In this document: piece by piece, positions 12-15,740 of the stretch
How positions within the stretch are numbered: the stretch's first letter is position 1
How the letters are laid out: each line of letters starts with the position of its first letter
Source: a virus
IMG/VR virus record: IMGVR_UViG_3300010885_017513
Location: 1-20,127 of that record
Direction: 5' to 3' (one strand)
Length of the DNA: 20,127 bases
Notes under the pieces: model-generated
What the model was told of the DNA's origin: nothing
Databases searched by the model: none
The model's input: the letters and a program-made list of their open reading frames with translations, nothing else
Made by a program: the position numbers and the translations under genes

Positions 12-815
12 ATGAAAAGAATAGATTTAATTAAGATAGAACACAATCGCAAGACAGGGCAAGTATGTGAATACATAGAACCAAATGTAACAGAAGATTG
101 TATATTTTATTCTGATGGCGAACCAATTGGGTTCTATATGTCTAAGATGCCCGAGAAGATGTGTAAACTTGCAGATTTGGCAAATAAAGAATTCCAAAGT
201 AAGAATGTGCCCAAAACAAAATTAGATAGGTCAGATGTCTTAAAAGCACAAATGGAAAACCCTGGTATGTCAAGGTCTGATGCAAGAAAGATTGGAACTT
301 GTCAGATGTCAACCATAATCGGTAGTGTACCTCCGAAACCTCAATTTATGAGATACTATCCAACAAAGTCATCAGTACATAATGTAAAGGAAGCACAGAC
401 ATATATTAAAGCTATGCTTCTACTGGCTAAAGAGAGTGAACAATTGATAAAAGAAATAATACCAAACCAATATTATAAGCAAATAGAACTCTTTAAAACG
501 ATAGATGACAAATGGAAGTTTGGAAACCTATTTACAAGTTCAATTTCAAACTTTAATATATCAGCACCATTTCATAGAGACACAGGAAACATTCAAGGAG
601 CAGTTAATGTAATCATTTGTAAGAAACATAATTCAAAAGGAGGTGATTTACATATTCCTGATTACAATGCAACCATAGGACAAAAAGATAATTCAATATT
701 AGTATATCCTGCTTGGAAGAATGTTCACGGAGTAACACCAATACTACCAACTTTTGAAGGAGGGTATCGTAACTCTTTAGTATTCTATCCATTGAAAGCA
801 TTTAATAATTTATAA
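12..815 (+). CDS. 2-oxoglutarate/Fe(II)-dependent dioxygenase-like protein (TET/JBP-like phage family)
   Basis: The protein has 267 residues. The C-terminal third carries the iron-binding pattern of the double-stranded beta-helix dioxygenases: H188-x-D190 in the motif FHRDTGN, distal H239 in HGVTP, and R253 fourteen residues later as the probable 2-oxoglutarate carboxylate binder. A GGDLHIPDY stretch (210-218) matches the strand between the iron ligands. By family knowledge such enzymes oxidise nucleic-acid bases or protein side chains. The overall pattern resembles phage TET/JBP-type oxygenases, which would suggest oxidation of a pyrimidine base, but the substrate is inferred. The N-terminal ~130 residues have no motif I recognise. 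The gene lies directly upstream of the small terminase subunit (stop at 815, next ATG at 817), so it is expressed with packaging genes. The ATG lies only 12 bases into the window, so an upstream extension cannot be fully excluded. Confidence 0.72.
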   Translation: MKRIDLIKIEHNRKTGQVCEYIEPNVTEDCIFYSDGEPIGFYMSKMPEKMCKLADLANKEFQSKNVPKTKLDRSDVLKAQMENPGMSRSDARKIGTCQMSTIIGSVPPKPQFMRYYPTKSSVHNVKEAQTYIKAMLLLAKESEQLIKEIIPNQYYKQIELFKTIDDKWKFGNLFTSSISNFNISAPFHRDTGNIQGAVNVIICKKHNSKGGDLHIPDYNATIGQKDNSILVYPAWKNVHGVTPILPTFEGGYRNSLVFYPLKAFNNL

Positions 816-2465: not shown

Positions 2466-2474
2466 TATATTATT
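2466..2474 (+). promoter_or_regulatory. TATATTATT element 1 (putative phage promoter), start of tail unit
   Basis: This exact 9-mer lies in the 34-base gap after terL, preceded by AAATTAAAA and ending five bases before the ATG at 2480. The same core precedes four other unit-leading genes in the window. The promoter role is inferred from position and repetition. Confidence 0.6.
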
Positions 2475-2479
2475 TAGAA

Positions 2480-3091
2480 ATGAAAGTAAAGAATTTAACA
2501 ATCGGACAATTTATTCAATGCAAAACAATATCTGATTTTGAGACTGATACGATTAACAAAAGTATCAAGATGTTAGCTATTGTAAGTAATAAAACATTTG
2601 ATGAGATAGAGTCTATGCCAATAGATGAACTTACAAGTGCTTTAAATCAGTTTAGTGAGATAGAATCTTTAACAAGCACAACCAAGTTAAAGATGAAGTT
2701 TAAAGTTAAAGGAAAGAGGTTTGAATGTATTTGGCAAACTCAAAAGATGGGTGCTAATCAATATATAGATGCTACATCTTTTTGTAAGGGTGAAAAAGAT
2801 ATTATAAATAATATCCATAATATTATGGCAAGTATTTGTGTAGAAAGAACCTGGTACGGAAAGAAATTAAAATACAATCCTGAAAAACATAAAGAGATTG
2901 CAGATTTATTTTATAATGATATGAAGATAACACAAGCGTATCCAATTATGCTTTTTTTTTGCAAATATTTCGAGGAATTACACAACAATATCCTAACTTA
3001 CTTGGAGGGGGAATCAGAGAAAGCAATGGAGATAGCGAGGAAATACAAGAGCAAGGAAGAACATTTGAAGAAAAGTGGGGATGGATTGTAG
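2480..3091 (+). CDS. Tail assembly chaperone, upstream (G-like) product
   Basis: The protein has 203 residues, is mostly helical and carries no enzymatic motif. In siphoviruses a short chaperone and its frameshifted longer form coat the tape measure during tail assembly. Here codons 158-160 are CTT TTT TTT followed by TGC, within a run of nine T residues (2952-2960). The -1 frame is open from 2920 to 3240 and encodes a protein-like extension. The unshifted product ends in a charged helix (EELHNNILTYLEGE... to KKSGDGL). Codons in the overlap are unusually G/C-rich at third positions (23 of 43 by my count), unlike the AT-rich bias elsewhere, as expected if both frames are used. It is the first gene of the tail unit, but the tape measure is not adjacent (7858), which is atypical. 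The assignment rests on architecture, not on clear sequence identity. Confidence 0.65.
   Translation: MKVKNLTIGQFIQCKTISDFETDTINKSIKMLAIVSNKTFDEIESMPIDELTSALNQFSEIESLTSTTKLKMKFKVKGKRFECIWQTQKMGANQYIDATSFCKGEKDIINNIHNIMASICVERTWYGKKLKYNPEKHKEIADLFYNDMKITQAYPIMLFFCKYFEELHNNILTYLEGESEKAMEIARKYKSKEEHLKKSGDGL
2952..2960 (+). promoter_or_regulatory. Slippery nine-T run for -1 frameshift
   Basis: In the reading frame of the 2480 gene the run is read as CTT TTT TTT TGC, which contains a perfect T TTT TTT heptamer (2953-2959) of the X XXY YYZ type. A -1 slip gives a product of about 253 residues ending at 3240. Transcriptional slippage on the homopolymer would have the same effect. Confidence 0.65.
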
Positions 3092-3240
3092 TAATAAATA
3101 ATATGTCAAATAATGATAGAACAAAATGGGATTTCTATTTTGATTTGAACGTAATTGAATTCTTAAATACAGTAGTATTTTTTAAAGATAAAGCAGAAGA
3201 AGATAAACGACAATGGCAAAAGGTCAAGGGGCAGCAATAG
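2959..3240 (+). CDS. Tail assembly chaperone, frameshifted (T-like) extension
   Basis: This is the -1 frame continuation of the 2480 gene, about 93 codons after the T-run. Its second half reads as a real protein: TFEEKWGWIVVINN followed by SNNDRTKWDFYFDLNVIEFL and a charged KDKAEEDKRQWQK end. The W-x-W motif followed by a short helical domain is what I expect of the T part of a G/GT chaperone, which would bind the tail-tube subunit. The first half (3000-3055) looks less protein-like, so the precise junction is open. If there were no frameshift, an ATG at 3103 could start a stand-alone 45-residue peptide, which I think less likely because the WGW segment upstream of it would be lost. It overlaps the next gene by 28 bases. 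Confidence 0.6.
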   Translation: MQIFRGITQQYPNLLGGGIRESNGDSEEIQEQGRTFEEKWGWIVVINNMSNNDRTKWDFYFDLNVIEFLNTVVFFKDKAEEDKRQWQKVKGQQ

Positions 3241-3854
3241 GAAATAAGTATGGTTCATCCACCAAAAATTTTGAAAAAGAATTATCAAATGGTGCTGAAA
3301 AAATTATGGTCACTTGGGCTAATGATAGTATTGCTATTATGCGTAAAATATTAATAAGAAAAACAAGGATTAAAGATAGAGGTAAACTTGCTTCAGACCT
3401 GGCTCCTAAACCACATCCGATTGATAGTAATGGTAGTTTAAAGATTCAGATTGTAACTATGCAAGACCATTGGGAATATGTTGATAAAGGAGTACAAGGA
3501 GTAAAGAGAAATAACAAAGCACCTAATTCACCATTTAGATTTAGGAATCTTGGAACTCCTGATTCAATGGTAAATAGTTTTAAGCAATATATATCTGCAC
3601 TTGGTTTAAAGACTGCTAAAATAAGTGGTAAAAGAAAATCACTTTATAAAACAAAGGATAAAAAGAAAACTGCTAATTATGATATGATAACTAAAGCAGC
3701 AAGAGGAATGGCAGTAGCAACTAAAATAAGTGGAATAAAAGCAGTTAATTATGTTGAACCATCAGTCGGAAGTAAAAGATTAAAAATATTATCAGAATCA
3801 TTATCAAAAGAAATAGGTAAGAAAATATCAGCATCAATAGTATCAGAATTTTAA
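3213..3854 (+). CDS. Putative tail completion / head-tail joining protein
   Basis: The protein has 213 basic residues. A central segment HWEYVDKGVQGVK, followed by SPFRFRN, resembles HK97 gp10-like tail completion and minor tail proteins, which join the tail terminator to the neck. Residues 120-160 are Lys-rich (ISGKRKSLYKTKDKKK). It starts inside the last codons of the frameshifted chaperone product, suggesting translational coupling, and the next gene begins two bases after its stop. No catalytic motif is visible. The gp10-like assignment is moderate; a generic minor tail protein is the alternative. Confidence 0.5.
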   Translation: MAKGQGAAIGNKYGSSTKNFEKELSNGAEKIMVTWANDSIAIMRKILIRKTRIKDRGKLASDLAPKPHPIDSNGSLKIQIVTMQDHWEYVDKGVQGVKRNNKAPNSPFRFRNLGTPDSMVNSFKQYISALGLKTAKISGKRKSLYKTKDKKKTANYDMITKAARGMAVATKISGIKAVNYVEPSVGSKRLKILSESLSKEIGKKISASIVSEF

Positions 3855-3856
3855 AT

Positions 3857-5044
3857 ATGGCAATTACAATATTATCAAATCCAAGTTCATTTATGGCAGC
3901 ACACAATCAAGTGCCATATACGGTCAGTTCAAATATGACTGGCCAACCTAATTTTAATTTTATCATAGATATAAATCAAACAAGTGGAACTAATAATCCA
4001 TTAGCAAGACTTAAATATCCTGTACAACCAAGTTCAGCACAAATAACTTTTGACATCGGAAACGTGCTTAAAAACTATGTTTCATATGATTTTAATAATG
4101 TAAGTGCAGTGTTTGCACCAAATACTAATTCACGTTTAAAATATTATGTTGAGTTTAGAGAACTTTATGATGTATGGGATGGTACACAATGGATACCTAC
4201 ATTACAATCAATTTCAGCGAGACATCCAACAACTCCAAGTAGTACAAGTTTTAATTTAGCCACTAATACAATATTTGATTTTGAAGATTACTCAAGTGCA
4301 GCAATGGTTGGAAAAAGTGTATCAAATATTGGATTCTTGTCAAATGGTAATTCATTATCGGAAAATATAAAGAGTACAGAAGAAAGATTCTTATATTGGT
4401 TTGACCCTTCAAGAGTGGTAAAGACTGTAAGGTATGTGGCCACAGGAGGAGGAACTCAAGATGTTTCAATTACTTTAACTTCCAACGAATATTTATTTTG
4501 CACAAGAGCAGGAAAGTATGCACAAGATGTATTACTCGCTGCTGATTTAGAAATAACAAATTTATATAAAGTTCAGTTATTAGATGGTAGTGGTAATGTA
4601 ATAGCTACTAAAACATTTAACTTAAATACTGAATGCTCAATTTATGGCACAACAAGACTACACTGGTTAAATAAATTAGGTGGATTTGATTCATTTAATT
4701 TTATAAGGAATTCAACAAAGACAGAGGATATTGAACGTAAGCAATTTAAAGCACCACTATCTATTGGATATACTAAACAAGATAGATTGAAGACCAATTA
4801 TAATACAACTATTAATGATAAAATTAATATACAATCTGATTGGATTAGCGAACAACAAAGTACACTATTTGAAGAATTGGTATCATCACCTATCATTTAT
4901 CTTGAACGTAATCCAACTTCTTTTGTAGCAGTAAATATTATAAATACAAATTATGAATTTAAAAACTATTTAAACAATAGAAAATTATTTAATTTATCTT
5001 TAGATATTGAGTACACATATTCAAGATACAGACAATCATTATAA
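3857..5044 (+). CDS. Putative tail structural protein (distal-tail candidate)
   Basis: The protein has 395 residues, is beta-rich with many Asn, Ser, Thr and Tyr residues, and has no membrane segment or enzymatic motif. The start (MAITILSNPSSFMAAHNQVP) and the later FDIGNVLKNYVSYDF and YYVEFRELYDVW segments are features I associate with unnamed tail proteins of Bacteroidota phages, consistent with a distal tail or tail-tip component. Its stop TAA shares a base with the ATG of the 936-residue gene at 5044, so the two are translationally coupled and probably work together at the tail tip. Unlike in most siphoviruses, both precede the tape measure. The exact function is unknown. Confidence 0.5.
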   Translation: MAITILSNPSSFMAAHNQVPYTVSSNMTGQPNFNFIIDINQTSGTNNPLARLKYPVQPSSAQITFDIGNVLKNYVSYDFNNVSAVFAPNTNSRLKYYVEFRELYDVWDGTQWIPTLQSISARHPTTPSSTSFNLATNTIFDFEDYSSAAMVGKSVSNIGFLSNGNSLSENIKSTEERFLYWFDPSRVVKTVRYVATGGGTQDVSITLTSNEYLFCTRAGKYAQDVLLAADLEITNLYKVQLLDGSGNVIATKTFNLNTECSIYGTTRLHWLNKLGGFDSFNFIRNSTKTEDIERKQFKAPLSIGYTKQDRLKTNYNTTINDKINIQSDWISEQQSTLFEELVSSPIIYLERNPTSFVAVNIINTNYEFKNYLNNRKLFNLSLDIEYTYSRYRQSL

Positions 5045-7854
5045 TGAATCAAAATAGATTAATAATAAACCAAGTATCAGGAGCAAGTATAGTTGAATAC
5101 GAACTTGATTTATATGATAATGTTCCTTTACCTATAAATAAAAGTATTATAGATATTCAAAATGTGGCTGAACGTAAAAGTGATTTTACTAAAAGTATTA
5201 CTTTGCCTGGCACCCATAACAATAATGATATCTTCAGTAATATATTCAATCTTGCTCGTTCAGTTAAAAATAATAATACTTATAATTTTGCACCTGATTT
5301 CAATCCTACTTTAAAAGCAGATTGCGTACTTTATAAGAACGATATTGTTCAGATAAGAGGTTATCTTCAACTAACTAATATAAATGTAACAGATGAAAAC
5401 CAAATAGAGTATGAGATAATAATTATAGGCAGGACTGCAAATTTATTTCAAGATTTAGGGCAAAAAAAATTAAATGAACTTGATTTAAGTGCATATAACC
5501 ATATTTGGAATTTAAGTAATATCCAAAATAGTTGGACTGCTCCTTTAACTAATGGATATTATTATGGTATGATAGAGTATGGGGCAAGTTCAAATGAAAT
5601 AACTCATTATATAGACCAAATGTATCCACAAGTATATTTGAGGATTATTATAGATGCTATTTTTAAAGATGCAGGATATAGGTATAGTTCAGATTTCTTT
5701 GACTCTACAAGGTTCAGAAGCATATTAATTCCTGCGACAGGAAAGCAATTACTATTAACTGATTCGCAAGTATTAGATAGATTTTTTGAAGCAAACAGAA
5801 CAACTGATTCATCTTACGCAAGTGTTGACACATTTTTACCTCTTGTGATTCCTTTTAATAATATTGTTACAAATACAACTCCATCAAGTTATAATACATC
5901 ACTATATCAAGAATTAGTAGGAAATGCAGGATATTATGATTTTGTTAGTAATGTAAAATTAAGGCTTAAAAATATATCAGGAACAATAATAACAAATATC
6001 AATCCTGCTATCTCTATACATAGGAATGGATTAATTGTTTGCCAAGAAAGACCATTTGTAATTCCCTCAATAGCACCTGGTGCAACTGCAGATATTACAA
6101 TTCCAATATCAAAATTAAATTTATTTTGTAATGTTGGAGATACAATTGACATAAGACTTTTAACAAGTAATAATTATCAAGGACTTCAATATTCTTTATT
6201 AACAGATTCAAATTTTTATAATAATCCAAGTGCAAGTATAGTTGAAAATGGCACTATGTCTTTAAATACTATTTTGCCTGATGATGTAAAACAAGCAGAT
6301 TTCTTAAGTAGTGTTTTTAAATTATTTAACTTATATGCAGAGTCAGATTCTTTAGATGACAAAAAATTAATAATTGAGCCGAGAGATACTTTTTATTTAT
6401 CTAACCTGGTTGATTTAACAAATAAAGTAGATGTAAGCCAAGGAGTACAAATACAACCGATGGGTGCATTGAAATTTAAAGAATACAAATTCACATTTGA
6501 AAAAGACACAGATGAGAATAATAAATTATTTGATGCTAAATATATTGATTCTTATGGTACAAAAAAACAAATTATAAAAAATGATTTTGCAGTTGACCAA
6601 ACAGAAACTAAAGTAATATTTGCTCCAACTCCATTAGGCTTATCAAGTTTTAATGACAGGATAATGACAAGGATATTATTTGTTGATAGCAATGGTAAGT
6701 TTACTAATAGTCCTGCAAAATTAAGATTGTTATATAGAGGAGGTAATGTCAATACTGCAAACACTTGGAACATCACAAGTAAGATATCAGGTACAGTAAC
6801 TAATTATACTACCTATCCATTTGTAGGTCACTTAAACTCAATATCAAATCCAACATTTGACTTGAACTTTGAAATGCCTAAACAATTATTTTACAATGCA
6901 CCAAAGTATACAAATGTAAACCTTTATAATTTATACCATAGAAAAGGAATTGAAGAGATTACTAATCCTGATTCCAAGATTGTAAAGTATCATATTAAGT
7001 TATCTGAATTAGAAATAAATAAACTATCATTTAGATATACCTATTTTATAGATAAGCAATATTATCGTTTATATGAAATAGATTTTGATTCTAATAGCCA
7101 AGAGCCATCAGTATTAACTTTTTTAAAACTATCAACATCAAATGTATTTACAGAAGTTACCCAAACAATAAATGGAGGCATTGGAACAATAGATGGTAAC
7201 CCTCAACCAATTTATGTAATTGATAGTTTAAGAAATGGAAATATATATCCGTATTTAGCAGATAACACAATACAAGGGTACGAGAATAATATTAGTGGAG
7301 GAACTAATATAGTAAACTCAAATGGAAACATTGTGAATGCTAATGGTGTATCTATTTTAGGAGGAGCAAATAATATATCTAATCAAGATGGAGGAACTTA
7401 TATTGGTTCTAATAATTATCAAAGTGTAATGCCTGGCGAAACTATAATTAACAATATCCATCAATCTTTTTTAGCCACAAGAATATTGTCAGTTTCTGAA
7501 CTACAAAATTTACATAGTACACCTATTCAAATACTACCAATTCAAAATGGATATTGGACAGAAGTTTATGATTCTTATATAACTGTATTTTTTGGAACAA
7601 CTGCATCATCAAGAGGTTATACTAATAAAAAATTACATCTACAAATTACTGGAGGAGATGGAACACATTTATTAGAGTTTGATAATTCAATAACTACATC
7701 AAATATAGCTATAAAACAACGAGGAGTAAATATCTATGATTTACCATTTAAAGAAGGAGCAATAGAGATACATACAGCAGGTAATTTAGGCACATCAGGA
7801 AACGGACAAATAATAATTGAATTACAATATAGATTACACCCAATTATAGTATAA
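5044..7854 (+). CDS. Large tail-tip / tail-associated protein
   Basis: The protein has 936 residues and is the largest in the window. The N-terminal region contains YELDLYDNVPLPINKSI and SDFTKSITLPGTHNN, a pattern I know from large tail proteins of Bacteroidota phages in the position of a baseplate hub or tail-associated protein. The middle is a long beta-rich region. Around residues 743-805 there is a stretch of short Asn/Gly-rich repeats (GGTNIVNSNGNIVNANG, then SILGGANNISNQDGG) that look like turns of a beta-solenoid, as in fibre shafts. The last ~130 residues (from about LATRILSVSEL) may be a distal head domain. No lysozyme or peptidase motif is evident. It overlaps the upstream gene by one base, and the tape measure starts three bases after its stop. 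It probably forms the tail tip; receptor binding is possible but unproven. Confidence 0.55.
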   Translation: MNQNRLIINQVSGASIVEYELDLYDNVPLPINKSIIDIQNVAERKSDFTKSITLPGTHNNNDIFSNIFNLARSVKNNNTYNFAPDFNPTLKADCVLYKNDIVQIRGYLQLTNINVTDENQIEYEIIIIGRTANLFQDLGQKKLNELDLSAYNHIWNLSNIQNSWTAPLTNGYYYGMIEYGASSNEITHYIDQMYPQVYLRIIIDAIFKDAGYRYSSDFFDSTRFRSILIPATGKQLLLTDSQVLDRFFEANRTTDSSYASVDTFLPLVIPFNNIVTNTTPSSYNTSLYQELVGNAGYYDFVSNVKLRLKNISGTIITNINPAISIHRNGLIVCQERPFVIPSIAPGATADITIPISKLNLFCNVGDTIDIRLLTSNNYQGLQYSLLTDSNFYNNPSASIVENGTMSLNTILPDDVKQADFLSSVFKLFNLYAESDSLDDKKLIIEPRDTFYLSNLVDLTNKVDVSQGVQIQPMGALKFKEYKFTFEKDTDENNKLFDAKYIDSYGTKKQIIKNDFAVDQTETKVIFAPTPLGLSSFNDRIMTRILFVDSNGKFTNSPAKLRLLYRGGNVNTANTWNITSKISGTVTNYTTYPFVGHLNSISNPTFDLNFEMPKQLFYNAPKYTNVNLYNLYHRKGIEEITNPDSKIVKYHIKLSELEINKLSFRYTYFIDKQYYRLYEIDFDSNSQEPSVLTFLKLSTSNVFTEVTQTINGGIGTIDGNPQPIYVIDSLRNGNIYPYLADNTIQGYENNISGGTNIVNSNGNIVNANGVSILGGANNISNQDGGTYIGSNNYQSVMPGETIINNIHQSFLATRILSVSELQNLHSTPIQILPIQNGYWTEVYDSYITVFFGTTASSRGYTNKKLHLQITGGDGTHLLEFDNSITTSNIAIKQRGVNIYDLPFKEGAIEIHTAGNLGTSGNGQIIIELQYRLHPIIV

Positions 7855-7857
7855 GAA

Positions 7858-9414
7858 ATGGCAACAGAAAAAGTAGTAGTAGATGTTGAAGTAAAAGCAG
7901 CACCTGCAGTAGCATCAGTAAAGAGTTTAAAAGCAGAGTTACGACAAGTAACAAATGAATTATCTAATCTTGAAGAAGGTAGTCAAGCATTTATTGCTGC
8001 AGCAACTAAAGCAGGAGAATTAAAAGATAAAATTGGAGATGTAAAAGATGCAGTAAACGCATTTAATCCTGAAAAGAAATTTCAAGCATTAGCAGGAGTA
8101 GTTGGCATAGCAGCTAATGGATTCGCAGCAATGCAAGGTGCTATGGCATTGATGGGTAGTGAAAGCAAAGACCTTGAAAAAGTAGTTGCAAAAACACAAG
8201 GTGCCATCGCTTTGGCAAGTGGTTTAAATGGATTACTTGGAATGAAAGATGCCTTTAAATTATTAGGCTCACAAGTTCTTAAATTGATTCCTGCATTAAA
8301 CTCAATGGGAGCAGCTATGCTCGGTGCGATTACAGGAGGTATAGCAATTGCCCTGGTTCTTATAATATCTTATTGGAAGGACTTAAAATACTTAATTACA
8401 GGAAGCATTGGAGAGGTTAAATTAAGTTCTCAAGAGATGCTTGATGCAGTTAAAAAAGGCCACGATGAATATAAGAAAGCAGCCAATGAAAGAATGGCTA
8501 TTGCTGAACGTGAAGCAAGATTAAAATTAGATGGTAAAGAATTAGATTTAGAACTTGCAAAAATAGAAAGACAAAAGAAAATTGTTGAAGCAGTAACAAG
8601 TGGAAAACTTGCTGATGAAAAAGTATTAATTGAAGCAGAATATCAAAAGTCTATAAAAGACATTAATAACAAATATGCAAAAGAAGCAGCAGACAAGAAA
8701 AAGAAAGATGATGAAAAGGCTAAATCTGATGCAGAAAAGAAAGCTAAAGCAGAGTACGATTCAAATAAATATTGGGCTGAACAATCTGATAAGACAGTTA
8801 AAAGACAAGCAGAATATAAAATAGAATTTGAAGATTTAAAACAAGCACAATTATTAAAGAATGTTGAAGAGCAAAAGAAGATTGATGATATAAACCAAGA
8901 GAACGCATTAGCTGATATAGAACTTGAAAAACAAAAAGCAGCAGCAAGACAACAATATTTTGAAGAAGGAGCAAATTATTTAAATCAAGCAGCTGATTTA
9001 CTTGGAAAGAATACTGCTGAAGGTAAAGTTTTGGCAGTAGCATCAGCAACTATTTCAACTTACTTATCTGCACAAAAAGCATTCGCATCTTTTGCTGATA
9101 TTCCTTATGTTGGTATTCCATTGGGTATAGCAGCAGCAGGAATTTCAATAGCAGCAGGATTACAAAATATCAATAAAATTTTATCAGTACAAGTACCTGG
9201 CCAAACAGGAGGAGGAGGTGGAGGAATATCAACTCCAACTGCACCAAGTATACCAAGAATTCCTCAATCATTAAGTGGTTCAATGCTTAATCAAAATAAG
9301 CCTATAGATATAAATAATACTAATGCTGTAGGTAAAGTAATAGTGACTGAAACAGATATTACTAATACACAAAATAAAGTAAAAGGTATAATAAGAAAAG
9401 CAACAATAAAATAA
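7858..9414 (+). CDS. Tail tape measure protein
   Basis: The protein has 518 residues. It starts with a short strand (EKVVVDVEVKAA) and coiled helices, then a hydrophobic segment (152-173, GAITGGIAIALVLIISYW). A long charged Lys/Glu/Ala coiled coil follows (about 190-375). A second Ala/Gly-rich hydrophobic region lies at about 393-441, with the STYLSAQKAFAS and GIPLGIAAAGISIAAG patterns seen near the C-terminus of many tape measures. A glycine run (about 450-455) and a Ser/Pro/Ile tail finish the protein. The tape measure sets tail length and forms the core of the tube, and its hydrophobic parts are thought to enter the host membrane. It is short for the family, implying a short-to-medium tail. 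It is last in the tail unit, downstream of the tail-tip candidates, the reverse of the usual order. Confidence 0.85.
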   Translation: MATEKVVVDVEVKAAPAVASVKSLKAELRQVTNELSNLEEGSQAFIAAATKAGELKDKIGDVKDAVNAFNPEKKFQALAGVVGIAANGFAAMQGAMALMGSESKDLEKVVAKTQGAIALASGLNGLLGMKDAFKLLGSQVLKLIPALNSMGAAMLGAITGGIAIALVLIISYWKDLKYLITGSIGEVKLSSQEMLDAVKKGHDEYKKAANERMAIAEREARLKLDGKELDLELAKIERQKKIVEAVTSGKLADEKVLIEAEYQKSIKDINNKYAKEAADKKKKDDEKAKSDAEKKAKAEYDSNKYWAEQSDKTVKRQAEYKIEFEDLKQAQLLKNVEEQKKIDDINQENALADIELEKQKAAARQQYFEEGANYLNQAADLLGKNTAEGKVLAVASATISTYLSAQKAFASFADIPYVGIPLGIAAAGISIAAGLQNINKILSVQVPGQTGGGGGGISTPTAPSIPRIPQSLSGSMLNQNKPIDINNTNAVGKVIVTETDITNTQNKVKGIIRKATIK

Positions 9415-9419
9415 AAAGA

Positions 9420-9428
9420 TATATTATT
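9420..9428 (+). promoter_or_regulatory. TATATTATT element 2, before the protease gene
   Basis: The exact core lies in the 18-base gap after the tape measure stop and ends four bases before the ATG at 9433. The upstream context is A-rich (AAATAAAAAGA). With only four bases to the ATG, a promoter here would give an mRNA with almost no leader. Confidence 0.55.
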
Positions 9429-9432
9429 CAGT

Positions 9433-10014
9433 ATGGAAAAATTACCAATATATAGATTCGTAGTTGGCGAAGATGATGAATGCCAATTAGAGGCAATGGC
9501 TTTAGTAGATAATCCTGCAATAGAATTAAATTGGCAAACATTTAATAACTCAAGAATTAATTTTGTAGCAGACAAAGAAAAAAGAGTTATAAGTGGAGCA
9601 TTGATGGTAGCTGATTTGCCAATTTATAGAAGAGATGAAAGTGGTGAATATTATGGAGTTTTTACTGCGATAGATATATATAACCTACGAAATAAATTCT
9701 TCAAGCATTCAAAGGATAAAGAGGTAAATATGATGCACGATTCTAATAAGATGTTAGATGGTGTTTATATGATTGAAAATTTTATAATTGATAGTTCAAG
9801 AAATATAAATTCACCAAAAGGATTCAATCTTACAGATGGAAGTTGGTTCGGTTCATATAAAGTAGATAACGAAGATGTATGGAATAATTTTATAAAGACA
9901 GGAGAGTTCAAAGGATTTAGTGTTGAAGGAGTATTTAAGACAGAAAAAATAGCTGAAAAACCTAAAGATATTATTGAGGAAATGATTGATATTGTTAAAC
10001 AAATAGACATTTAA
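9433..10014 (+). CDS. Prohead maturation protease, XkdF-like
   Basis: The protein has 193 residues. The central and C-terminal parts match the XkdF-like phage serine protease pattern: a histidine in MMHD (H102), then GSWFGSYKVDNEDVW (136-150), then GEFKGFSVEG with the probable catalytic S163. Such enzymes cleave scaffold and capsid N-termini during prohead maturation. The N-terminal segment DECQLEAMALVDNPAI is also typical of this family. It lies immediately before the scaffold and capsid genes, the expected partner order. It has its own TATATTATT element and is separated from the scaffold gene by another one. The histidine/serine assignments come from motif reading and are not verified. Confidence 0.8.
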   Translation: MEKLPIYRFVVGEDDECQLEAMALVDNPAIELNWQTFNNSRINFVADKEKRVISGALMVADLPIYRRDESGEYYGVFTAIDIYNLRNKFFKHSKDKEVNMMHDSNKMLDGVYMIENFIIDSSRNINSPKGFNLTDGSWFGSYKVDNEDVWNNFIKTGEFKGFSVEGVFKTEKIAEKPKDIIEEMIDIVKQIDI

Positions 10015-10032
10015 ACAAAAAAATAAATTAAG

Positions 10033-10041
10033 TATATTATT
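10033..10041 (+). promoter_or_regulatory. TATATTATT element 3, before the scaffold/capsid unit
   Basis: The exact core, in the context AAATTAAG-core-AAG, lies in a 46-base gap and ends 19 bases before the ATG at 10061. It would drive the scaffold, capsid and tail-tube genes, the block expected to need the highest expression. Confidence 0.6.
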
Positions 10042-10060
10042 AAGCAAATAAAATAAACAA

Positions 10061-10624
10061 ATGACAAAATTTAACGCATTCGCAAAAATAAAAGCATTAT
10101 TCGCAAACGAAAATTTTAATGATGCTAAATTAGCAGATGGAACATTAATTCAATGGGAAGGAGATTTAGCAGAAGGAGTGGCAATAATGACTATTGATAC
10201 TGATGGAAACACTTTACCAATTGCAGATGGAACTTACACTATGGAAGATGGAAGTGAAGTTTATACAATGGGTGGATTAGTAACAAAGATTGAACCTGCA
10301 TCAGAAGATGTTAATGGAGAGAATCCTGCAGAAGCACCTGAAACAATGGCTGTTTCTGATACATCAATGTTAGAAGAAAGATTAGCTGCTTGTGAAACTA
10401 AAATGGCAGATATGGAAAAGAAGATGCAAGAAATGTTATCAGCAGTTGAGATGGAAAGTCAAAATGTTGATTCTAAATTTAATGAAATTAAAGAGATTGT
10501 TGAAACTATTGCAGATGAACCAATAGTAGTTGCTGAAGCACCAAAGAATTCAACTTTTAAGAAAGCAAAACCTTCAAAAACTGCAGCAGAAAAAATTGCA
10601 GATTGGAAAAATAGTTTAAAATAA
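10061..10624 (+). CDS. Putative capsid scaffolding protein
   Basis: The protein has 187 acidic residues. Residues 20-80 are a small beta-rich, Asp/Gly-rich part. Residues 103-150 form a probable coiled coil (MLEERLAACETKMADMEKK and on). The C-terminus (165-187) is basic, with KKAKPSKTAAEKIADWK. A central coiled coil and a basic C-terminal capsid-binding tail are the usual architecture of scaffolds, and the gene sits between the prohead protease and the major capsid protein. Scaffolds guide capsid assembly and are then cleaved and expelled. There is no detectable enzymatic motif. The assignment rests on position and architecture. Confidence 0.7.
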   Translation: MTKFNAFAKIKALFANENFNDAKLADGTLIQWEGDLAEGVAIMTIDTDGNTLPIADGTYTMEDGSEVYTMGGLVTKIEPASEDVNGENPAEAPETMAVSDTSMLEERLAACETKMADMEKKMQEMLSAVEMESQNVDSKFNEIKEIVETIADEPIVVAEAPKNSTFKKAKPSKTAAEKIADWKNSLK

Positions 10625-10651
10625 TATAAACCTTAAAATTAATATAAAGAA

Positions 10652-11593
10652 ATGGCATTTAACGTAACCAGTCTAACCAACTATTCTAATCCGAACGAGA
10701 ATGTTCTGATTACAAAAGCAATGTTTGAAGCAAAAACTGCTTCAAGAATGACTCCATTAACAGGAGTAAAATCAACAATAGAAGTTCCTACTTTAGCCGA
10801 TACATTATTTTGGCAAGATGGTTCAACTTGTGGCTTCTCTGCAAGTGGTAATACATCAATTAGTGGTAGAACTTTAACTATTGGAAAAATCAAAGTAAAT
10901 AAAGAATGGTGTATCAAAGATTTAGAATCTAAATATACACAATTATTATTGAAGCCAGGCAGTCAATATGATGCATTGCCAGGAGGTATTGACCAAGCAT
11001 TCGTGAATACAGTTATCGGTACTAACGGAGAGCAAATGGAAGTAGCAATTTGGCAAGGTGATACCACAAGTGGTAATCCTAACTTAAACAAATTTGATGG
11101 TTTAGTGAAAATTATCAACGCAGCATCAGGTACTACCCAAGCTAATGCAACTGCTTATGTAAGTGCAGTAGCAACTGCAATAACTGAAGCAAATATAATC
11201 TCAATTTTACAAGGAGTTTATAAAGCAATTCCTATCGCATTATTGAACAAATCTGATTTAAAAGTAAATGTAGGAATTCACATTTTCAGATTGTATCAAA
11301 TCGCATTAACTAATGCAAATTTATTCAACTACAAGACTGTTGATAGTGCATTAGGTGAAATGAAGATTCACGGAACAGATGTTACTATTGTGGCTTGTCC
11401 AGGTTTAAATAACATAAATGCAATCTATGCTTTACAAGATGCAAATATGTTCTTGGGAATGGATTTAGAGAACGAAGAAGAAGCATTCAAGTTTTGGTAT
11501 TCTATGGATTTTGATTTGGTAAGATTCAAAATGGAATTCAAATATGGTGTTCAAGTTTCTCAAGTTGCAGAAATCGTTAAATTTACAATATAA
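10652..11593 (+). CDS. Major capsid protein (probably HK97 fold)
   Basis: The protein has 313 residues with no membrane segment. Near the start it has TKAMFEAKTASRMTPLTGVKS, then a beta-rich region with KVNKEWCIKDLESKY and, later, HIFRLYQIALTNANLFNY. It ends with the strand-rich FWYSMDFDLVRFKMEFKYG segment. This helix-then-beta layout, the length, and the position directly after protease and scaffold support the major capsid protein. I saw no obvious fusion or decoration domain. A partial match to the promoter context (AAAATTAATATA) lies just upstream, but without the full element. A perfect hairpin follows the stop codon. Confidence 0.85.
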   Translation: MAFNVTSLTNYSNPNENVLITKAMFEAKTASRMTPLTGVKSTIEVPTLADTLFWQDGSTCGFSASGNTSISGRTLTIGKIKVNKEWCIKDLESKYTQLLLKPGSQYDALPGGIDQAFVNTVIGTNGEQMEVAIWQGDTTSGNPNLNKFDGLVKIINAASGTTQANATAYVSAVATAITEANIISILQGVYKAIPIALLNKSDLKVNVGIHIFRLYQIALTNANLFNYKTVDSALGEMKIHGTDVTIVACPGLNNINAIYALQDANMFLGMDLENEEEAFKFWYSMDFDLVRFKMEFKYGVQVSQVAEIVKFTI

Positions 11594-11599
11594 TTAACC

Positions 11600-11628
11600 A
11601 AGTGGAGTAGCTAATAACTACTCCACTT
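11600..11628 (+). terminator. Hairpin after the capsid gene (weak terminator or processing site)
   Basis: A perfect 11-bp stem (AAGTGGAGTAG at 11600-11610 with CTACTCCACTT at 11618-11628) encloses a seven-base loop, starting seven bases after the capsid stop. Only a few T residues follow, so termination is likely partial. It may instead stabilise the 3' end of the capsid mRNA while allowing reading into the gene at 11643, which has no promoter element of its own. Confidence 0.65.
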
Positions 11629-11642
11629 TAATAAATAAAAAT

Positions 11643-12161
11643 ATGGCTTGTGCAATCGTTTCAAACTATGCTCTTGACTGCAAAGATACAGTAGGAGGAA
11701 TAAAAAATTTATACATTACTGAATTAGGTAATGTAACTGCATATGCTGAAAATGCAAGTGGAATCGTTTCAGCAATAACAAAAGCAACAGGAACTAAATT
11801 CTATAAATATGAATTAGAGCCTCGTGGTGCAAATAATACATCAGTAGCAATACAATCAGACCCGACAATCGGTACTGTTGCTTATGAGCAAACTATTACT
11901 GCAAATTTCTTAAAGATGCAACAAGCGACATCTGCAAAATTAGCATTGTTAATTCAAAACAGATGTGTAATAATTGTAGAGATGAAATCAGGACAAGCAT
12001 TTATTTTCGGTAAAGAAAATGGTATGCAAGTTTCGGGTGGAACTGCTACAAGTGGTGGTGCTATGAATGAGTTCAATGGCTATACTTTGACTTTTATGGG
12101 ACAAGAAAAAGCATTCTCTCAAGAAGCATTAGCATCTTTATTAGGAACAATTACTGCATAA
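11643..12161 (+). CDS. Putative major tail (tube) protein
   Basis: The protein has 172 residues. A beta-rich body (GGIKNLYITELGNVTAY, then KFYKYELEP and TVAYEQTITANFLKM) ends in a segment with VIIVEMKSGQAFIFG, a Gly-rich loop and GYTLTFMGQEKA. This size and all-beta layout fit siphovirus tail-tube subunits, which polymerise around the tape measure. It lies right after the capsid gene and just before a strong terminator, as expected for a highly expressed structural gene. The tail chaperone is encoded about 8 kb upstream in another unit. A head decoration protein is the main alternative. Confidence 0.6.
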   Translation: MACAIVSNYALDCKDTVGGIKNLYITELGNVTAYAENASGIVSAITKATGTKFYKYELEPRGANNTSVAIQSDPTIGTVAYEQTITANFLKMQQATSAKLALLIQNRCVIIVEMKSGQAFIFGKENGMQVSGGTATSGGAMNEFNGYTLTFMGQEKAFSQEALASLLGTITA

Positions 12162-12184
12162 ATTCTTTTCATTGTTTTCATAAT

Positions 12185-12216
12185 TAAGCCTACTCATATA
12201 GAGTAGGTTTTTTTTT
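12185..12216 (+). terminator. Strong intrinsic terminator
   Basis: The stem CCTACTC (12189-12195) pairs with GAGTAGG (12201-12207) across a five-base ATATA loop. The pairing extends outward through G-T and A-T pairs, and nine consecutive T residues follow (12208-12216). It lies about 25 bases after the tail-tube gene and closes the scaffold-capsid-tail tube unit. The sequence resembles the hairpin after the capsid gene (shared ACTCC/GGAGT-type core). Confidence 0.9.
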
Positions 12217-12237
12217 GCTTGTAAAAATATAAATTAG

Positions 12238-12246
12238 TATATTATT
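12238..12246 (+). promoter_or_regulatory. TATATTATT element 4, restart after the terminator
   Basis: The exact core lies 21 bases after the T-run of the terminator and four bases before the ATG at 12251. Because transcription should stop just upstream, new initiation is needed here, which makes this the best positional support for a promoter role. A TTTG sits about 20 bases upstream (12214-12217), reminiscent of the -33 box of Bacteroidota promoters, but it is not shared by the other copies. Confidence 0.65.
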
Positions 12247-12250
12247 AGAT

Positions 12251-12667
12251 ATGATAAAGTTTAACAAATCAGCTACCAATAATGTAGTAGTAACTTTAAA
12301 AGAGAATTCAACTATTGCTAATCCGATTTATTTATTTAAATTTGTAAGCCAACAAACAAAAGTAAATTATTATTTTATTGGAACTGATATAAGTGCATAC
12401 AAAGATAGATATAATCAATTTACAATAGTAGAAAAGCCAGGTGCTAATACTTTAAATGGAGAGATTACATTAGGTTCTGAAGGGTTCTATGATTATAAAG
12501 TTTATCAAACAAATTTAACTAACACAAGTGGACTTGCTAATGCAGAAGCAGCAGTTCCAAATATAACAAAAGAAGTAGAAGATGGATTAGTGTATGTTGT
12601 ATTCGCAGCAAATACTAATATAACATATAATTCAATAGATAATACGTTAATAGTTTACCAACCATAA
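12251..12667 (+). CDS. Small beta-rich structural protein of unknown function
   Basis: The protein has 138 residues and is predicted largely beta, with TNNVVVTLKENSTIANPIY, then an aromatic LFKFVSQQTKVNYYFIG strand pair and the conserved-looking DRYNQFTIVE and GFYDYKVYQT. It has no cysteines, signal peptide or membrane segment. I associate this pattern with unnamed proteins in Bacteroidota phages near the portal, but the role is unknown; a capsid decoration or neck protein is possible. It is the first gene of its unit, and the portal gene starts one base after its stop, so co-translation with the portal is likely. Confidence 0.6.
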   Translation: MIKFNKSATNNVVVTLKENSTIANPIYLFKFVSQQTKVNYYFIGTDISAYKDRYNQFTIVEKPGANTLNGEITLGSEGFYDYKVYQTNLTNTSGLANAEAAVPNITKEVEDGLVYVVFAANTNITYNSIDNTLIVYQP

Positions 12668-12668
12668 T

Positions 12669-14660
12669 ATGTATAAGAATTCAGTAATAAAAATAAGTTT
12701 TACAAATGACAAAGTACCAATGTTTGTAGAACAAAGAGGTAAAGATTTTATCAAGTATGGTGAAACAAATGACTATCCTGAATATTTAGTAACTCTATTT
12801 AATAGGAGTGCTAAACACAATGCCATTATTACATCAAAACAATTGTATATTAATGGACAAGGATTTATGTTTGACCAAACAGATATGGAAGGAAAAGATA
12901 TCATATCTCTCCAAGCATTTATAGACAATCCTAATTCGTATGAAACTTTAAATGACCTATTATCAAAGACAAGTTTAGATTGTGAATTATTTGGTGGTTG
13001 TTATTTAAAAGTAGTAGGTAGAAAAGGTGGAAAAGGATACGATATTTATCACGTTGATTACTGCAAAATAAGAAGCAATTATGATAATACTGAATTCTAT
13101 TTAAGTAATGAATGGATAGATGAAAATGGGGTAGAAAAACATAATCCATTTATTGAAAAAACTTATCCTCCATTTGATTCTAATGCAAAAAAACAAGCAG
13201 AATCAATCTATTATTACAAATCTTATAGGCCAAATTTAAATACATATACTTTACCTGAATATATTGGGGCAGTTCCTGCAATTATAACAGATGCAGAGAT
13301 AGCGAATTTCCATCGTGCAGAGATTCAGAATGGATTCAAAGGAAGTAAGATGATTACTTTTATGAATGGTGTTCCATCTGATGATGAAATGAAAGTTACT
13401 GAAAGAAAATTAAAGAACAAATTTACATCCACAGACTCTGCAGGAAGTATTGTTATTGATTTTGTTGATGACCCAATGAGAGCAGCTAAAATTGATGATT
13501 TAAATGCAGGAGATTTTGCTCAAAAATATGAAGCGTTAAACGAAACTATTCAGCAAGAGATATTTGTTGGCCATAAAATCACATCACCTATGATATTCGG
13601 AGTAAGAGTACCAGGTCAATTAGGTGGAAGAGATGAAATGATAGATGCGTACAATATATTCTCTGCAACTTATATCTCGCCAAAACAAAAGATACAGACA
13701 AATATCTATAATTTATTTGCTCCGATAAAAGGTAAGTTAGAGATTAAGCCATTAGAACCTATTATGCCTAATTTTAGTGAATCTACTTTGATGAGTATAT
13801 TGACTAAAGATGAGATGCGAGATATTATTGGAAGGAAACCATTAGAGATTAAGAATGTAACATCTACAGTAGCTGATTCATTAGGTGCATTAAGTCCTTT
13901 AGTTGCTACAAAAGTATTGAATCAATTAACTCCTAATGAAGTAAGAGCAATCATTGGTAAGCCAGGATTAGAAGGAGGTGACACAATAGTTCCAAGTACA
14001 GATGTAACTAATCCTGTATCAGCATCAAATGACCAAAGAATGTGTAATCACGAATTTACTTCTGCTCAAGATAAGTTAGATTTAGAAGTATTTATGAAAT
14101 ATGGAGAATCAGCAGATAATTTTGTAAGTATAAAACGCAAAAAAACAATGTTATCGAGCCAAGATTTCGCTATGACTGATGGTGAGAAAGCAGTATTAGA
14201 TTTAATTAAAAAGAATCCAAATATAAGCAAAGAAAATATTGGTAAAATACTTGGATTAAATATGAATAATGTTGAAGGAATGTTGGAAACTTTAATTGGA
14301 GAAAAATCAATTACAGAAAACAATGGATTACTTAATATAACAACTAAAGGAAATGCATTGAAATTGCCAACTTTTGAAGAATTATTGATACGTTATAAAT
14401 ATGAATTGAGAGATTCTGCACCTGATTTAGTTGAAGGAGGAAGTAGTAGAGAGTTTTGCCAGGCAATGATGGATAATCCTCGTTACTTTACAAGAGAAGA
14501 TATCATAAATATAGGTAAAGATTTAGGACAATTATATGGAATATCTAATTATGATGCATTCACTCGTAGAGGTGGATGGTATCACGACCCTTTAAAGAAT
14601 GTAAACTTGCCTTATTGTAGGCATATTTGGGTTCAATCTATTGTAAAAAAAATTAAATAA
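12669..14660 (+). CDS. Portal protein with a C-terminal winged-helix-like and unknown domain extension
   Basis: The protein has 663 residues. Residues 1-365 match a portal core: YGETNDYPEYLVTLFNRSAKHNAII near the start, the stem/clip region with FHRAEIQNGFKGSKMITFMNG, and HKITSPMIFGVRVPGQLGGRD, typical of Bacteroidota phage portals. Two similar segments follow (376-393 and 418-437), both with LTxxExRxIIG. Residues about 500-562 look like a winged helix (DGEKAVLDLIKKNPNISKEN, then IGKILGLNMNNVEGMLETLI and a short wing). The last ~90 residues (566-654) contain SREFCQAMM, FTREDI, RRGGWYHD and PYCRHIW and resemble a Cys/His end domain seen in phage head proteins, but I cannot name it. The portal is the DNA gateway and packaging docking point. 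It lies downstream of the capsid gene, an unusual location. Confidence 0.85.
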   Translation: MYKNSVIKISFTNDKVPMFVEQRGKDFIKYGETNDYPEYLVTLFNRSAKHNAIITSKQLYINGQGFMFDQTDMEGKDIISLQAFIDNPNSYETLNDLLSKTSLDCELFGGCYLKVVGRKGGKGYDIYHVDYCKIRSNYDNTEFYLSNEWIDENGVEKHNPFIEKTYPPFDSNAKKQAESIYYYKSYRPNLNTYTLPEYIGAVPAIITDAEIANFHRAEIQNGFKGSKMITFMNGVPSDDEMKVTERKLKNKFTSTDSAGSIVIDFVDDPMRAAKIDDLNAGDFAQKYEALNETIQQEIFVGHKITSPMIFGVRVPGQLGGRDEMIDAYNIFSATYISPKQKIQTNIYNLFAPIKGKLEIKPLEPIMPNFSESTLMSILTKDEMRDIIGRKPLEIKNVTSTVADSLGALSPLVATKVLNQLTPNEVRAIIGKPGLEGGDTIVPSTDVTNPVSASNDQRMCNHEFTSAQDKLDLEVFMKYGESADNFVSIKRKKTMLSSQDFAMTDGEKAVLDLIKKNPNISKENIGKILGLNMNNVEGMLETLIGEKSITENNGLLNITTKGNALKLPTFEELLIRYKYELRDSAPDLVEGGSSREFCQAMMDNPRYFTREDIINIGKDLGQLYGISNYDAFTRRGGWYHDPLKNVNLPYCRHIWVQSIVKKIK

Positions 14661-14668
14661 ATAAAAAA

Positions 14669-15262
14669 ATGGCTGAAGTTTTATTTTTAAGCGAACAAAC
14701 CTTGAAAGATAGGTCTGTTTTACAAGATAATGTGGATATGAAAGTAGTTAAGCCTACGATAATGGATGTACAGAAGTATTATGTATTACCGATAATGGGA
14801 ACTCAACTGTATAATGAAGTAATAAATCAGATAAAAACAAGCACTTTAACTGCTTTAAATACTACTTTATTGAATGATTATATAACTGATGTAATGGTTT
14901 GGTATTGTAGAATGGAATTACCAATGGCAATGAACTATAAATACTTTAATAAAGCCATAGGAACGCAGAATGCAGATAATATGCAACCAGCAACAATGCA
15001 AGATATTGAGGTAATAATGAATGATGCAAGAAATAAAGCACAAGTTTATGCCCAAAGAATGACAAATTATCTACTCGCTAATACTGTAAAATATCCATTA
15101 TACTTAAACCAAGTTAATACAAGTGTAGATACTATATTTGCTAAACAAAACAACTATAATAGTGGACTTGTATTGGGTGATAATAATGGATGCAATGGTG
15201 AATTTAATTTTAAAGGTATAAGAATCCAACCAAGCGAAAAGAGATGTTCTTGGTGCTATTAA
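14669..15262 (+). CDS. Head-tail connector / adaptor protein (DUF6712-like)
   Basis: The protein has 197 helical residues. The N-terminal LFLSEQTLKDRSVLQDNVDMK, followed by VVKPTIMDVQKYYVLPIMGTQLYNEV, is the hallmark I associate with DUF6712-type proteins of Bacteroidota phages, which occupy the position of gp6-like neck adaptors. The C-terminal end is Cys-containing (NNGCNGEF, RCSWCY), with three cysteines that might bind metal. It follows the portal closely (stop at 14660) and precedes the tail-terminator candidate, the expected neck order. The role is to extend the portal ring for tail attachment. Confidence 0.7.
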   Translation: MAEVLFLSEQTLKDRSVLQDNVDMKVVKPTIMDVQKYYVLPIMGTQLYNEVINQIKTSTLTALNTTLLNDYITDVMVWYCRMELPMAMNYKYFNKAIGTQNADNMQPATMQDIEVIMNDARNKAQVYAQRMTNYLLANTVKYPLYLNQVNTSVDTIFAKQNNYNSGLVLGDNNGCNGEFNFKGIRIQPSEKRCSWCY

Positions 15263-15276
15263 AATAAATAAAAATT

Positions 15277-15720
15277 ATGCAATTTTATACATTAAACCAG
15301 GTTCTAAATCTTATAGAAAGTATTTCAAATAATCACGCACAAGTTAATCTTTATAATTTTGGGCAAGACACAGAAATAAGTGCAAAAGAACAAGAAAGAT
15401 ATCCTCTTGTTTGGGCTGATGTAAAGGATTCAAATATTGAAAACTACACATTACATCTAACAATTGATTTGATGGTATTAGACATCATTAAATCGTATAA
15501 TTTTAATGAAAAAGATATATTATCTGATACATTAAGTATTGCTCAAGACATATATGCACAATTGGCATCGTACGAATATCAAGATTATTTTATATTAGAC
15601 ACGAATGTTCAATTAGTTGTAATGAGAGAAGCATTACCTGACCTTGTAAATGGTTGGAAGATGACTTTAAATTTCCAATTAATGCAAGATAGAAATAGAT
15701 GCCAAGTTCCAACTAAATAA
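15277..15720 (+). CDS. Putative tail terminator / neck protein
   Basis: The protein has 147 residues with an alpha/beta pattern. YPLVWADVKDSN is followed by a strand pair (NYTLHLTIDLMVLDIIKS), a helix (DTLSIAQDIYAQLASYEY) and a closing strand pair (DLVNGWKMTLNFQLMQDRNRC). This size and layout fit tail terminators, small proteins that cap the tail tube and dock it to the neck. It follows the adaptor gene and closes the head-neck unit, with the next TATATTATT element starting 11 bases after its stop. Similarity is by fold pattern only, so confidence is moderate. Confidence 0.55.
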   Translation: MQFYTLNQVLNLIESISNNHAQVNLYNFGQDTEISAKEQERYPLVWADVKDSNIENYTLHLTIDLMVLDIIKSYNFNEKDILSDTLSIAQDIYAQLASYEYQDYFILDTNVQLVVMREALPDLVNGWKMTLNFQLMQDRNRCQVPTK

Positions 15721-15731
15721 AAAGAATTAAA

Positions 15732-15740
15732 TATATTATT
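15732..15740 (+). promoter_or_regulatory. TATATTATT element 5, before the fibre/lysis unit
   Basis: The exact core, in the context AATTAAA-core-AAG and nearly identical to the copy at 10033, lies in the 41-base gap after 15720 and ends 21 bases before the ATG at 15762. It would drive the fibre, lysis and downstream genes. Confidence 0.6.

Follow-up and report, generated by a model that had tools for sequence, protein, structure and literature searches.

Phage sigma factors that direct transcription from their own late promoters are already known. SPO1 and T4 both encode such factors, and the T4 late promoter, TATAAATA, has no upstream element and needs gp33 and the sliding clamp. The sigma factor of phiEco32, named gp36, is ECF in character. 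Phages phiEco32 and 7-11 each combine a phage sigma factor with late promoters of its own (PMC4331800). Beyond a few model systems little is known of phage late promoters, least of all for Bacteroidota phages, and a literature search that was thin on subscription journals and preprints found no paper on such promoters in this group. The case described here is best classed as a Bacteroidota-phage variant of a known arrangement.

The window, meaning the whole stretch of DNA analyzed, is a complete virus record of 20,127 bases that, judged against 35 kb relatives, appears to be a fragment of a phage genome. Its genes lie on one strand throughout and encode a Tet_JBP-like oxygenase, the small and large terminase subunits, a tape measure protein, an S78-type protease, a capsid-like protein (phrog_11320; weak SU10_MCP), a portal, tail proteins, a lysozyme, and a phosphoesterase. 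A megablast search of the window against phages gave no match, and the nearest phage by TerL is Flavobacterium phage FPSV-S2. The window holds no sigma gene, the fragment stopping short of the region that carries one in the relatives. Like the relatives of the window, whose sigma factor is a predicted one, phiEco32 and 7-11 are lytic phages with a sigma factor and a few well conserved short motifs before their structural genes (PMC4331800), and their early genes are read by the host sigma factor, as is proposed here. They are, however, larger podophages of enterobacteria whose -10 motifs are of the TGATGT type, whereas the window's clade has genomes of ~35 kb, an AT-only motif, an RCAAW upstream element, and promoters abutting start codons. 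No anti-sigma gene was recognized. The T4 late promoter is likewise a short AT-rich -10-like element placed before late genes and served by a phage sigma-like factor, but the upstream RCAAW element belongs to the window's alone. A T4-type late promoter was itself considered and rejected, as the motif at every site is TATATTATT and not TATAAATA; genes of the T4 gp55, gp33, and clamp type had no match among the proteins scanned.

The exact 9-mer TATATTATT stands before five gene blocks of the window (Table 1). All five positions reported for it by the sequence-only reading are correct and on the plus strand, each in a gap 5' of an ATG (5, 4, 19, 4, and 21 nt for S1-S5). The same reading held that the window contains no other copy, which is mistaken: two minus-strand copies exist, one within a gene (7369-7377) and one at a gene's end (10620-10628). 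No counterpart of either was seen at the same places in the relatives, and both look like chance occurrences. The downstream AG that it also described is present at all five sites in the window but is not conserved in the relatives, which have, for example, tataa, catt, or atgt. In total the window carries seven copies against 2.6 expected, a count that 3 of 100 shuffles reach. The 9-mer lies in 5 of the window's 24 upstream 40-mers, whereas the count never exceeded two in 5000 shuffles; when any 9-mer is allowed to win, 14 of 1000 shuffles reach five. Significance within the window alone is thus moderate, and it is conservation in the relatives that settles the case against chance.

Table 1. 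Coordinates of the promoter elements, the terminator-like hairpin, and a sigma-like gene of a relative. Positions refer to the window unless stated otherwise.
Feature	Sequence or product	Position	Strand	Remarks
S1	TATATTATT	2466..2474	+	-10-like element 5' of gene after TerL (ATG 2480); exact in 10/10 close contigs holding the site
S2	TATATTATT	9420..9428	+	5' of protease gene (ATG 9433); exact in 7/7
S3	TATATTATT	10033..10041	+	5' of g10-capsid block (ATG 10061); exact in 7/7
S4	TATATTATT	12238..12246	+	5' of g13-portal block (ATG 12251); exact in 8/8; weak upstream element
S5	TATATTATT	15732..15740	+	5' of g17-tail block (ATG 15762); exact in 7/7; weak upstream element
S1 upstream element	AACAAA	2447..2452	+	13 nt 5' of TATATT; bases -20 to -11 97% identical among relatives
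S2 upstream element	AACAAT	9402..9407	+	12 nt 5' of TATATT in window, 13 in most relatives
S3 upstream element	AACAAA	10014..10019	+	13 nt 5' of TATATT; no difference among relatives in bases -20 to -11
Terminator-like hairpin with T-run		12186..12210	+	closes capsid block, directly 5' of S4
Sigma-like gene, relative G002	P0001	oriented 13173-13673 = L013:6328-6828	minus (in L013)	

Eleven relatives were found by a scan with the capsid-like protein, the close ones having a capsid-like protein 84-90% identical. Searching these for the 9-mer near gene starts, as the sequence-only reading had suggested, found it exact at 39 of 39 orthologous sites in the close relatives (per-site counts in Table 1, window included). 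These sites had been gathered via the 9-mer itself; in an alignment by gene start, it is missing from no close relative wherever the start could be placed (for the G005 protease the start chosen was wrong, and the 9-mer of that genome lies there at 12104). At the same sets of sites, identity is no more than 46-61% over bases -30 to -21, so that the flanks diverge while the 9-mer is kept. When the 9-mers that precede genes in the window's clade are counted by gene family, TATATTATT takes the top rank. In the 35 kb relative G002, each of the five plus-strand copies stands before a late gene, and the early region has none. G005 and G010 hold five late copies and one extra plus-strand copy (at 3078 and 12045, respectively, in window orientation) inside a methyltransferase-like gene upstream of the terminase; its surroundings are conserved too, which may reflect either constraint on the coding sequence or a promoter.

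Two further observations concern these sites. Between the protease gene and g10, G003 (L003:7158-9103) and, in the same place, G005 carry an insert that encodes a Zeta-toxin-like kinase and also has a gene on the minus strand; within it both genomes have a minus-strand TATATTATT. In the more distant relative L007, neither motif precedes the g17 orthologue although the gene is 85% identical; it thus seems that individual sites can gain or lose a late promoter.

What the sequence-only reading overlooked is that the 9-mer is, by its sequence context, only the -10 half of a larger element. Its partner, RCAAW, most commonly in the form AACAAA, lies ~13 nt upstream and is clear at three of the five sites (S1-S3) and weak at S4 and S5. 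With the five sites given equal weight, the region 5' of the 9-mer is an A-rich stretch in which C is preferred at -17. Together the two halves likely constitute a bipartite late promoter of the form (A)RCAAW - ~13 nt - TATATTATT. In the relatives the distance to the ATG is 4-6 nt at S1, S2, and S4 and 16-21 nt at S3 and S5. The spacing between AACAAA and TATATT is equal at S1 and S3 (13 nt), whereas the distance to the ATG at these two sites is unequal (5-6 vs 16-20 nt).

The relatives encode a candidate reader of this element, a sigma-like protein of ~145-170 aa whose gene lies 2.6-6.6 kb upstream of TerL. The protein is laid out like an ECF sigma factor, with a region-2-like N-terminal half, a C-terminal helix-turn-helix, and regions 2 and 4 only. 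Matches to the Pfam sigma regions fall below the cut-off (Sigma70_r2 is best, E 0.014), and a sequence search against the PDB returned SigW alone (E 0.6). A tblastn search with two representatives against 50,697 phage records gave no match, and a profile-guided scan of genome contigs found no relative. Two AlphaFold2 models were made, one from 12 sequences (mean pLDDT 75.5) and one from 36 (77.7); in them a helical domain at the N terminus is joined through a low-confidence linker to a C-terminal domain of four helices. Going by their titles, the PDB matches listed by Foldseek are sigma factors or polymerase complexes, the best being 6dv9_F (ECF sigma L; E 1.2e-3, probability 1.00), and the matches in the viral library are phage proteins named Sigma70-ECF or RpoE-like. 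VIA-align 2 gave a match to region 4 of SigD (Z 8.6, rmsd 2.1, 59 residues), a few other helix-turn-helix proteins appearing at lower ranks. For helical domains a Z of about 8 is a middling value, and the argument rests more on the consistent kind of match. The predicted models, matching mainly sigma factors, suggest that the protein is an ECF-like sigma factor. It resembles bacterial ECF (group 4) sigmas in its size, its two regions, and the ECF structures that its models match; it differs from them in its low identity (~10-17% in structural alignments) and in the AT-rich -10 of most lineages.

To compare sigma factors with motifs, a sigma family collected from 89 contigs by a profile-guided scan was cut into lineages at 60% identity, and one orthologous site, upstream of the gene after TerL, was read in each. 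In lineage s2, which comprises the window's relatives, TATATTATT occupies this site in every contig. Lineage s0 instead has TTAGCAAAAAAGTA...TTTATATTT or TATATATT (10 distinct rows), s1 has AACAATTT...CTTATATTTATAA or CTATTTA variants (16 rows), s3 has AACAATAAACGTGTAAAATTATATATTA (4 rows), and s5, s6, and s7 (1 row each) have AGCAAA or AGCAAT with a -10 of their own; TATATTATT is found there in none of the 33 rows of these lineages. The distant lineage s4 has neither motif at the site. Plain k-mer ranking did not bring out the motifs of the other lineages, because late genes are a minority of starts, whereas the aligned orthologous site did. Contigs L052, L057, L059, L060, L062, and L063 have ATAAACAAA...TAGTTATATATATATG before the gene after TerL, and no sigma of the window's family was detected in them.

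Sigma factor and late block are largely co-inherited, and much of the match between lineage and motif could therefore reflect shared descent, so cases of exchange were sought. The TerL of L022 is nearer to s0 (80-83%) than to its own lineage (76-79%), yet this contig has an s2 sigma and TATATTATT. L140 and L129, whose TerL is only ~31% identical, nevertheless have an s0 sigma, with the s0 motif directly after TerL. The motif thus appears to track the sigma factor and the late block rather than the adjacent TerL, although shared descent may still account for part of this pattern.

A cultured phage, Nonlabens phage P12024S (Inhavirus; 35.7 kb), was reached through portal similarity, the portal being only 23% identical. 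P12024S resembles the relatives in early gene order (ERF, YqaJ-type exonuclease) and in having a sigma gene shortly before TerL: gp33, 1.3 kb before it, scores above the Pfam Sigma70_r2 cut-off, unlike the window-family sigma, and hhalign of that sigma family against gp33, with a probability of 1.5%, did not establish homology between them. On its plus strand P12024S has six copies of the pattern ACAAA-N13/14-CGTTA, with none on the other strand, and all six sites lie 6-7 nt 5' of an annotated ATG; five precede late genes and one (gp35) stands just before the terminase. As in the window, an ACAAA-type upstream element thus lies 13-14 nt 5' of a -10 that abuts the ATG; the -10 itself differs, being CGTTAATA rather than TATATTATT.

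Together, these observations make it almost certain that the 9-mer before the five blocks switches on late genes. Its reader is probably a sigma factor of the kind that the relatives encode, with a distinct form of the signal for each sigma lineage. We consider it likely that the host core polymerase, carrying a phage-encoded ECF-like sigma factor, reads the bipartite TATATTATT promoter and so drives the five late blocks. The sequence-only reading had proposed a phage-specific promoter served by a modified polymerase or a phage sigma-like factor, and the sequence evidence supports it: conservation, late-only placement, a terminator 5' of S4, and a sigma lineage that predicts the motif at the same gene. 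We infer that the sigma factor of the relatives is what reads TATATTATT, and that the early genes, that of the sigma factor among them, are most likely expressed by the host sigma-A polymerase. The phage sigma would then steer the host core RNA polymerase to the late promoters, its gene sitting, as in the relatives, upstream of the terminase genes and beyond the window fragment. If TATATT takes the usual place from -12 to -7, transcription would start ~7 nt past it, and the mRNAs of S1, S2, and S4 would be near-leaderless, with leaders of only ~1-3 nt. Several observations count against this explanation, namely the absence of a sigma gene from the window itself, the weak upstream elements of S4 and S5, the sub-cut-off Pfam matches of the sigma, the motif-less g17 of L007, and shared descent.

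Other readings of the elements were weighed. The late promoters may be read by the host sigma-A holoenzyme assisted by an activator or co-activator of the phage, with the ECF-like protein acting elsewhere, and this we regard as unlikely. TATATT is one base off TATAAT and several early proteins have no known function, as such a mechanism would allow, but the Bacteroidota -7 box is missing at the sites, the motif varies by sigma lineage before the same gene, and the CGTTA of P12024S resembles what we take to be an ECF-type -10. An unaided Bacteroidota sigma-A promoter was rejected, TAnnTTTG occurring at none of the five sites, as the sequence-only reading had observed; host TAnnTTTG boxes before early genes showed no clear enrichment with the exact pattern. 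Short repeated sites 5' of genes would also fit a repressor or other DNA-binding protein (operator, packaging, or replication signal), a reading made very improbable by elements that are not palindromic, always follow gene orientation, and keep mostly fixed distances to the ATG and to the upstream element. Slimmer still is the chance of a translation signal, an AU-rich mRNA element guiding the ribosome to the start codon: the position 4-6 nt 5' of the ATG at S1, S2, and S4 in all relatives would suit it, but the element is 16-21 nt away at S3 and S5, is present before some genes only, and has a terminator directly 5' of it at S4, and AACAAA holds its distance to TATATT and not to the ATG, which favors a promoter at the DNA level. 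Recognition by a phage RNA polymerase is equally remote, for although single-subunit polymerase promoters can hold short fixed AT-rich elements, no polymerase gene was seen among the proteins scanned, which included the window's 936-aa protein and only part of the small genes.

Returning to a promoter read by a phage ECF-like sigma, we hypothesize, with about an even chance of being right, that a broad group of small Bacteroidota phages shares fast-diverging ECF-like sigmas that recognize lineage-specific -10 elements and a common RCAAW, from promoters 4-6 nt before the start codon that yield near-leaderless mRNAs. Dozens of related phages with paired sigma and promoter variants at one gene would form a series for studying the evolution of sigma specificity and a source of orthogonal sigma-promoter pairs. 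Near-leaderless late mRNAs are predicted here for hosts in which Shine-Dalgarno sequences are seldom used, and the prediction is open to test in the cultured P12024S.

Two minor observations concern the early region. In 7 of 7 s2 relatives read, the gap just upstream of the sigma gene (for example L020:9935-10000) holds a host-type TATTTTTG box and then a hairpin with a T-run; the start codon of the sigma gene is GTG or TTG. This arrangement could attenuate or delay sigma expression, which is only a lead because no pair has changes on both sides. The first gene of the window (12-815) encodes a Tet_JBP-type oxygenase by Pfam (E 1.1e-9), its PHROGs family being named queuine tRNA-ribosyltransferase. 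Its G002 orthologue (L013:676-1443, minus) is 77% identical and belongs to a cassette that also encodes an amino acid:DNA transferase (ADDT), a kinase-like protein, and a ParB-like protein, a setting that suggests hypermodified DNA.
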